64,000 nt of DNA from an uncultured Lachnospiraceae bacterium (GTDB lineage: Bacteria; Bacillota; Clostridia; Lachnospirales; Lachnospiraceae). The stretch lies in NCBI GenBank assembly GCA_947630925.1, contig CANRJM010000004.1, positions 1-64,000 of the forward strand, written 5' to 3'. The position numbers and the translations under genes are program-made. This document shows, in pieces, positions 62,229 to 63,438 of the stretch. The notes below the pieces were generated by a model that was not told the origin of the DNA, did not search any database, and saw nothing but the letters and a program-made list of their open reading frames with translations. Numbering within the stretch: the stretch's first letter is position 1; every line of letters begins with the position of its first letter.

Positions 62229-63179
62229 TTACTCGCTTTCCTGTAAAAAATGCTCTTCAAAATATTCATCTGCAATCATCTCCAGATACTCTTTCTGCAA
62301 ATCAGGATACTCCTGAAACAATTTGGAGCGAATATGCGCTATTATCATTAAATCGTTTTCCATCTCTGAAATATTTTGATCCTTCCAACTGTCCACCATT
62401 TCTTCCGAAACATTTTCCGTCAGCCATTCCTTAATTGTTTTTGTCATGGATTCCTCTTCCGGAATCTGCGGCTTCAATTTCTGCGCTTTTACAATGGATA
62501 CAATTCCGGCAATGGCAAAACAGGCAAACATAGCAGCTATAATACAGAAGATAATGTCGTTATATTGAATCGGAATCACCCTGGTCCGGGATAACGTCAG
62601 ATACACGGCTCCAAGCAGGCCAAAGATCAGGAGCGTAATGCCAGAAAGTTTCGTATCCCGGTATACATCTGCCTTCTTTACATATTCTTTCCTGTCCGAA
62701 GTATATAGCAAATCCGTCGTATCTTCCTCGATCTCTTCCGAAACCAGAAGATCTTCCTCCTTTTCTCCTGCCGCTTCTCCGTTTTCTGCCACGTCCGCAT
62801 TCTGTTGTCCCTGCTGCGCATCCCATTTGGAATCTTTACCTTCCGGCAGATGATCCGAATCCTTTTCGGTATCATTCCTTTTTTCTTCTCTTTCTTCTTC
62901 TTTCGCCAGGAGATATCCATGCACTACTTTTTCTGCCGCAGCTTCCTCCTTCTTTGGAACAAGCAGCCGATAGCTTCCGCTCTCCTTTTCCTGTTCCATT
63001 CTCATGCCTTTTATTCCGGAATATTCTAAAAACTCTGCTATTTCTTTGGCTGTCTTTTCGTCATTAATCTCACAAACATCAACTTCATCTGTCTGCGACT
63101 GTTCTACCAGCTCTGTTCCACAATCTGCGCAAACAGTAATTCCATCCCGGTATTCCATCTTACATTTTGGACACCACAT
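62229..63179 (-). CDS. Zinc-ribbon membrane protein of unknown function
   Basis: 316 residues: an N-terminal zinc ribbon (C3/C6 and C17/C20; WCPKCKMEYRDGITVCADCG), a DUF2007-like alpha/beta region (~33-92), a long acidic Glu-rich linker (~93-165) and two membrane helices (~178-197 and ~208-228), then a helical acidic tail. Ribosome site GGAGG precedes ATG 63179. I do not recognise a defined function; the ribbon suggests interaction with a cytoplasmic partner. Confidence 0.75.
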   Translation of the reverse strand: MWCPKCKMEYRDGITVCADCGTELVEQSQTDEVDVCEINDEKTAKEIAEFLEYSGIKGMRMEQEKESGSYRLLVPKKEEAAAEKVVHGYLLAKEEEREEKRNDTEKDSDHLPEGKDSKWDAQQGQQNADVAENGEAAGEKEEDLLVSEEIEEDTTDLLYTSDRKEYVKKADVYRDTKLSGITLLIFGLLGAVYLTLSRTRVIPIQYNDIIFCIIAAMFACFAIAGIVSIVKAQKLKPQIPEEESMTKTIKEWLTENVSEEMVDSWKDQNISEMENDLMIIAHIRSKLFQEYPDLQKEYLEMIADEYFEEHFLQESE

Positions 63180-63201
63180 ACCAAATTTCCTCCTTATATC
63201 T

Positions 63202-63438
63202 TTTATGGATCATAGTTAATTGCGAAACGATTCAAAATAGTATACCTCATTGTGTCATCTGCACAAAAACCGTAAACAGGCATTGCGAGCCCGCCGGTAC
63301 TTAAGCAGCGCGGCAGCGGTGCTTTATGTACCGCTGCGTGGCGCAACATAGCGAAAGCGTGCCTGTGTTGGTTTTGTGTAGATGACACAATGGATATAGA
63401 CTATAGGAACGTTTCGGAATTGCCTATTTATGGATCAT
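63202..63438. mobile_element. MITE-like palindromic element flanked by 12 bp direct repeats
   Basis: TTTATGGATCAT occurs at 63202-63213 and 63427-63438. Inside, inverted termini AATTGCGAAACG (63218-63229) and CGTTTCGGAATT (63410-63421) match 11 of 12, and long inner arms (63248-63271 and 63370-63392) differ by one base and one indel. The centre holds GCAGCGGT/ACCGCTGC (63313-63320/63330-63337) and an alternative stem GGTAC/GTACC. No coding capacity is evident. It fills most of the 470 base gap between the zinc-ribbon gene and prfC. Confidence 0.65.

Follow-up and report, generated by a model that had tools for sequence, protein, structure and literature searches.

A Lachnospiraceae MITE and its IS1182-related partner lie at a fixed offset from Shine-Dalgarno-like motifs, which a putative transposase may use as a target landmark

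Introduction

Transposable elements that insert at a fixed distance, and in some cases in a fixed orientation, from an expression signal are described among the Mutator-like DDE elements TnGBS, ISLre2 and ISKra4, according to the part of their description compared here (PMC3942029). Their landmark is the -35 box and their transposases belong to a different family, whereas the elements that we describe lie next to Shine-Dalgarno sequences. Among the published texts compared, this TnGBS-type promoter targeting is the nearest behaviour to the one reported below (PMC3942029).

The IS1182 family, including ISPse1 and ISMac2, resembles our elements in that the transposases are related by profile (NF033551, DUF772). 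In the excerpts compared, ISPse1 has 16-bp ends and the MITEs of ISMac2 measure 160 and 169 bp (PMC3852290). The duplications listed, as given by the table columns, are 4 bp for ISPse1 and 4 or 0 bp for the ISMac2 MITEs (PMC3281130, PMC3852290), whereas those of the present elements are mostly 10-13 bp. Shine-Dalgarno targeting is absent from the parts of these descriptions that were compared (PMC3281130, PMC3852290). Another member of the family, IS1272, is reported in the excerpt compared to replace inverted-repeat targets without duplication (PMC5678879); it is thus like the present IS in its family relation and unusual target choice, but differs in replacing its target without duplicating it.

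Dispersed intergenic hairpins are also known as REP/BIME, BOX, ERIC and QMITE2, which we set apart by published descriptions compared in part and by general background rather than by sequence search. The present hairpin differs from them in having an 86-nt covarying core, which was hit in 117 of 298 sampled genera of Lachnospiraceae and is also found within unrelated ends. REP/RAYT hairpins, as far as the descriptions compared go, are 20-40 bp long and tied to a tyrosine transposase, whereas the present element has 213 bp and target duplications. REP/RAYT hairpins are not known to carry target duplications. In the part of the open-licence PMC literature that was covered, neither the core nor targeting of Shine-Dalgarno sequences was found described.

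Results

The window, that is, the whole stretch of 64,000 nucleotides that was analysed, had been interpreted before from its letters alone, and this sequence-only reading described a palindromic, noncoding element of about 204 bp upstream of prfC, flanked by exact 12-bp direct repeats. Direct reading of the sequence confirmed the repeats (Table 1), and the element between them measured 213 bp instead of 204. Its terminal inverted repeats match at 11 of 12 positions (AATTGCGAAACG / AATTCCGAAACG) and a second, inner set of arms is present, both as claimed; the longest frame within the 213 bp is a 61-aa chance ORF, in agreement with the noncoding call. The element has inverted-repeat ends of 16-17 bp; inside these lie long, imperfectly matched arms, and the apex is GC-rich. 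The register of the duplication is ambiguous by 1 base: it can be read as 12 bp, the element end then being AG.., or as 11 bp, with TAG.. as the end. Matches to the end motif with up to 2 mismatches are not rare in the window (8 found vs 11 expected), and the one exact match in the window is the terminus of this element. The adjacent gene on the left appeared by eye to encode a zinc-ribbon and membrane protein; neither this label nor the name prfC, which was taken from the sequence-only reading, comes from a family search.

Table 1. Features of the element and its surroundings (positions in the window)
Feature	Position	Strand	Basis
Adjacent gene, 316 aa, start codon 34 bp from the element	62229..63179	-	
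Shine-Dalgarno sequence (AAGGAGG) belonging to the adjacent gene, 18 nt beyond the edge of the element; putative target landmark	63189..63195	-	
Left target-site duplication, TTTATGGATCAT	63202..63213	.	
MITE, 213 bp, single long imperfect hairpin	63214..63426	.	
Left terminal inverted repeat, AGTTAATTGCGAAACG; elsewhere the most frequent form is TAGGYAATTGCGAAAC	63214..63229	+	
5' arm of inner hairpin	63248..63271	+	sequence + fold
Conserved structured core, model R1, 87.1 bits	63278..63364	-	
3' arm of inner hairpin	63370..63392	+	sequence + fold
Right terminal inverted repeat; minus strand reads TAGGCAATTCCGAAACG	63410..63426	-	
Right target-site duplication, TTTATGGATCAT	63427..63438	.	

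The whole element folds as one hairpin, as RNA on the plus strand (-101.9 kcal/mol, z -10.9), as RNA on the minus strand (-90.1 kcal/mol, z -7.9) and as plus-strand DNA (-62, z -12.0), and none of 200 shuffles was as good in any of these cases. Two mutually exclusive hairpins had also been proposed for the centre. The second of them (GCAGCGGUGC..ACCGCUGC) does fold alone, at -18.8 kcal/mol, but it was absent from the folds of the 61-nt centre and of the whole element; it lies outside the conserved core described below, and we rejected it as a switch. A search of Rfam with the element returned zero matches at E <= 1.

We then asked how the element is distributed. In its own genome (2.42 Mb, 93.5% complete), BLAST gave 34 matches, several of which are one palindromic copy seen on both strands; they include 8 near-full-length copies, the window copy among them, at 85-100% identity, one decayed copy and some partial or short ones. 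The model of the core found 9 cores in this genome. The flanks of the copies differ, and each has its own direct repeats, often 11/12 alike. Copies with different flanking repeats, mostly 10-13 bp long, were found elsewhere too, which bears out the proposal that the repeats are target-site duplications. Among 167 loosely defined end pairs, many of which are chance pairs, 29 had a flanking-repeat score of at least 9, a score that no pair reached when the flanks were shuffled in 20 rounds. In a stricter set of 107 elements, a duplication with a score of at least 8 was found in 48 (lengths 9-14, with 38 of the 48 at 11-13 bp) and 59 were without a scored duplication. The repeat of the window copy is perfect, and this copy is therefore probably young.

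We also compared the orthologous place in relatives, with one genome per species. A prfC fragment matched in 28 of 28 genomes of the genus, and 24 loci with a strong match, own included, were compared. The left neighbour gene was found in 5 of the 23 other loci (G006, G025, G010, G022 and, with other frames between, G008), and none of these five had a core between the two genes. An empty site is thus seen by synteny only, because the intergenic DNA is too diverged, and a nucleotide-level site with a single 12-mer was not found in them. A single copy conserved in all relatives, which would have pointed to a fixed regulatory structure, is contradicted by the multicopy element and the core-free orthologous sites. 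Judged from its sequence, the element at 63214-63426 is a MITE, being short, non-coding and multi-copy, with target duplications and with terminal inverted repeats shared with an IS; the copies with different duplications, the core-free sites and the autonomous IS with matching termini, described next, uphold this part of the sequence-only reading.

The end motif TAGGNRNTTGCGAAAC, with 1 mismatch allowed, occurred 47+35 times in Butyribacter intestini (G001), vs 0+1 for the reversed pattern. One inverted end pair in this genome, spanning 1757 bp, encloses a transposase, which is broken there into 265 and 215 aa. The transposase with matching termini that the sequence-only reading suggested looking for is thus encoded by an IS of about 1.75 kb, IS1182-related, whose ends are shared with the MITE; by eye, MITE and IS have little in common beyond the ends. 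Homologous transposases with the same ends are also present in other members of the genus. Homologues occur in 8 of 29 genomes and, at E 1e-20, in 26 of 299 genomes of the family, the own genome being included in both counts. An intact transposase was not found in the own genome (93.5% complete) by homologue search. This genome has an internally deleted copy of the IS, 826 bp long with both ends kept (contig C29, L305, 1361-2186), and a Shine-Dalgarno-like motif lies at the offset given below. The intact transposase of G005 scored 63.3 bits (E 1.9e-17) against NCBIfam IS1182 NF033551. The DUF772 domain (PF05598) of the transposase passed the Pfam cut-off of 23.1 with 42.4 bits. Because 63 bits lie below the curated NF033551 cut-off of 270, we call the transposase IS1182-related and not a member of the family. 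A homologue of known structure was not found by sequence search. A separate attempt to find an autonomous partner from paired ends 0.3-6.9 kb apart in the first 292 loci was rejected; of its 19 long pairs, 13 were inspected and four more were the same place as one of those, and all of these looked like chance.

Next, we analyzed where the elements lie relative to genes. In the own genome, the distance from the element edge to an RBS-bearing start codon clusters at 29-35 bp. Among 71 elements from several genera, a list that contains two near-duplicate pairs, such a start codon was found in 63, with 41 at 27-35 bp and one at 36. At this stage AAGGAG was the sharper landmark: 30 of its 33 occurrences were 16-21 nt away from the edge. 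A test on 20 elements from two genera, whose flanks had been unread until then, placed a Shine-Dalgarno-like motif at 16-21 in 15; AAGGAG itself was at 15-19 in all 9 of 9, and in 4 of the 5 misses variants of the AAAGG- or GAGG-type could be seen by eye close to that position. The final set, which takes in the elements of the earlier counts, comprises 107 elements. The loose motif lies 15-21 nt outside an edge in 83 of them, whereas six other windows of 7 nt gave 5, 6, 6, 4, 4 and 7; 24 are without a motif at the expected offset. Removal of look-alike flanks left 82 of 106. Of the 47 cases in which AAGGAG occurs within 60 nt of an edge, 43 have it at 15-21 (binomial p 3e-34 if positions were uniform). 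The offset was found in 44 of the 48 elements with a scored duplication and, within the set of 107, in 13 of 15 that exceed 700 bp. For the window copy, the AAGGAGG of the left gene lies at an offset of 18, the modal value. Neither this offset nor the spread of the core across the family, described below, formed part of the sequence-only reading.

The same rule held for the IS. Of 37 IS loci scored, 19 have both ends (two being duplicates) and 18 of these fit the motif offset; counted as distinct IS with both ends, 16 of 17 fit, in 12 genera, and the 5' end of the transposase gene faces the motif in all fitting cases. Orientation was judged here by the longest open frame, and some of the 17 are shortened copies. 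The misfit is L304. The other 18 loci comprise 11 without a good end and 7 with one good end; the motif was found in four of the seven (L307, L418, L426, L430), a variant in L433, and none in L410 and L432.

In 68 of the 83 elements with the motif, a start codon comes after it, opening a frame that has at least 40 aa or runs off the locus; the remaining 15 include some with a start codon and a short frame. At least 3 of these 15 (L402, L404 and L093, by eye) have the motif within a terminator-like hairpin instead of ahead of a gene. This favours recognition of the motif over selection for leaders, suggesting, from sequence context, that a DNA motif and not the start of a gene is recognised.

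The GC-rich apex of the element corresponds to a core of 86 model positions. Its conserved parts are unpaired, namely CGCTNTCGCT on the 5' side, an AG bulge, a CATAA/TAAG internal loop and an AAANAC loop, and its paired parts are variable. In 30 sequences from the genus, 21 of 26 pairs change on both sides and 90.3% of cells are paired; none of 500 shuffles reached the covariation score. These 30 were chosen from 57; the copies set aside were near-duplicates, three with nested inserts and most of the long-loop copies of G014. Among 111 distinct sequences (97 loci) that do not belong to the first set, both sides change in 25 of 26 pairs and 90.7% of cells are paired, in an alignment that was fitted to the core model and hence leans to it; again 0 of 500 shuffles reached the covariation score, and the number of further pair types is within the range of the shuffles (35/500). 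In three Butyribacter intestini loci (L092, L093, L103), the apical loop of the core is interrupted by another sequence (ATGAATGCTAYAGCTCG..).

The core model matched in 118 of 299 genomes of the family, or 117 of 298 Lachnospiraceae genera, many with at least 15 copies. In a sample of the phylum, the core was found in 4 of 299 genomes, all four Lachnospiraceae, and in no other family; both searches used strict filters, by which weak matches are lost. When the exact core pattern was searched in named genomes, most of the matches listed were titled Lachnospiraceae or with genera of that family. The matches listed also include a few MAGs titled Gastranaerophilales (L195, L222, L232), Muribaculaceae (L221, L253) and Clostridiaceae; an insertion site common to L253 and L184, the latter titled Blautia, makes mislabelling of bins a likelier cause than transfer. 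A viral origin of the core was considered and rejected, the exact core pattern having 0 matches in IMG/VR. In Rfam, the core of one relative scored 17.3 bits to a miRNA family with a gathering score of 60.

We asked whether the core behaves as an RNA of one strand. On the modelled strand, G-T cells (52) and A-C cells (65) are about equal, which is not like selection on one RNA strand, the count being uncalibrated, as the tRNA control (6 vs 2) comprised 10 tRNAs, too few for calibration. Relative to genes, the core is in sense orientation in 72 of 123 cases (p 0.07), at most a weak bias; 205 of 283 cores were usable for this count and a crude ORF caller placed 22 of those 'inside' genes. One vertically kept copy (L064 and L066) directly follows the same gene, by eye uvrB, in the two species G001 and G009. 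Between these orthologous cores, 4 pairs changed on both sides and still pair, 3 changed on one side, 6 broke and 64 are the same.

The core also occurs within other ends. G193 has 11 core copies with ends like GGTTCGGGTGTCAAAAGCCC, and 10 of the 11 have perfect 7-bp duplications, an equal score being reached by 1.8% of mismatched flank pairs. By eye, at least 7 of these 11 (L348-L357, L152) lie at the base of terminator-like hairpins, a target choice unlike that described above, and no obvious 1-2.5 kb end pair that could represent an autonomous partner of this class was seen. In G014, G008, G064 and others, the core has further ends, with duplications less clear or not found; locating edges by arm alignment gave unreliable results for other classes of element at most of the 47 places scored. 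The presence of cores within unrelated ends indicates that the core can exist independently of the IS1182-related ends. Transposons may have captured the core repeatedly, or the core may have gained new ends by other means. Two arrangements were also observed: core hairpins in tandem, 3-4 in a row at a spacing of about 150-210 bp, in G137 (L384, L380, L382), and two inverted cores about 200 bp apart, like a larger composite element, in 5 of 5 stretches of G064 (L358-L362).

Discussion

The copies, the ends, their duplications, the partner IS, the fixed offset and the one-way orientation of the IS are features of the sequences themselves. We put at roughly 85% the probability that they reflect the mobilisation of a MITE in trans by an IS1182-related transposase targeting AAGGAG, with insertion about 18 nt 5' of the motif.

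An alternative is that insertion into AT-rich intergenic DNA is untargeted and that the only survivors are copies between a promoter and a ribosome-binding site. Most copies do lie before genes and the flanking DNA is AT-rich; however, the AAGGAG offset varies by 1-2 nt for most elements, which is tighter than the offset of the start codon, all fitting IS are in one orientation, and the motif is used within terminator-like hairpins as well, so that we consider this explanation unlikely. Selection against other positions could still sharpen the pattern. The absence of a fixed promoter position also argues against untargeted insertion. A second alternative is that the landmark is a sigma-A promoter, with the Shine-Dalgarno sequence following at its typical distance. 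Elements of the TnGBS type do insert 15-17 bp before -35 boxes, in the part of the description compared (PMC3942029), and a -10-like hexamer peaks at the far edge of our elements (14 of 81 at 6 nt, a match that includes the terminal T of the element). On the same 81 elements, however, promoter-like -35/-10 pairs were not found at a fixed position: they spread over 6-58 nt with no sharp peak (the largest being 7, at 21), and their number is not far above that in shuffles (55 vs 44.7), whereas AAGGAG peaks at 18. Promoter targeting as in TnGBS/ISLre2 is thus very improbable.

An immobile regulatory RNA structure belonging to prfC or the neighbouring gene would fit the covarying core and the position in a 5' leader, but it hardly deserves consideration for an element that is multi-copy, lies at different genes with its own duplications and whose core is absent from the orthologous place in five relatives. 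The core taken by itself is a different matter. It might be a functional RNA, such as a leader RNA or a small RNA, that was spread by transposons, which would agree with the mobile structured-RNA element named as an alternative in the sequence-only reading; strong covariation, conserved unpaired motifs and the 4 compensated pairs of the G001/G009 orthologues (beside 6 broken ones) speak for this, and the G-T cells, no commoner than A-C, the nearly even gene orientation and the lack of an Rfam match near the gathering score speak against it. We hold an RNA function of the core to be possible but somewhat doubtful.

If an IS1182-related transposase targets AAGGAG as we propose, it would bind the ends of about 16 bp (TAGG..GAAAC, TAGGYAATTGCGAAAC) of either the IS or the MITE and would capture a target that has a Shine-Dalgarno-like AAGGAG on one side. 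The element would then be joined about 18 nt 5' of AAGGAG and about 11-12 bp of the target would be duplicated, by a chemistry that we assume, by analogy, to be that of established DDE transposition. Insertion at this distance would place the element in the leader of a gene, thus sparing the ribosome-binding site and the coding sequence. We infer that it is the transposase that reads the motif, that this protein also mobilises the MITE in trans, and that the core travels as a passenger module, which would be kept for its DNA (or RNA) structure. Its role may be that of a DNA structure in replication or transposition, or of an RNA structure in leaders. We give even odds to the wider proposal that Shine-Dalgarno sequences serve a putative DDE-type transposase as DNA landmarks for placing its IS and MITEs in the leaders of genes with near single-nucleotide precision, and that the core is an independent, Lachnospiraceae-wide DNA module captured by several unrelated transposons.

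From the sequence comparisons, the system appears to be of a known kind, an IS plus its MITE, with an unusual target rule. The core is a conserved, covarying structure in more than a third of the Lachnospiraceae genera surveyed (117 of 298), without an assigned function. Predictable insertion near ribosome-binding sites might serve as a tool for gut Clostridia. If the proposal is true, the recognition of translation-start signals would be a new strategy of target choice for a transposon, which would find a safe harbour in many leaders, spare the coding sequence and leave a hairpin in the 5' leader each time.
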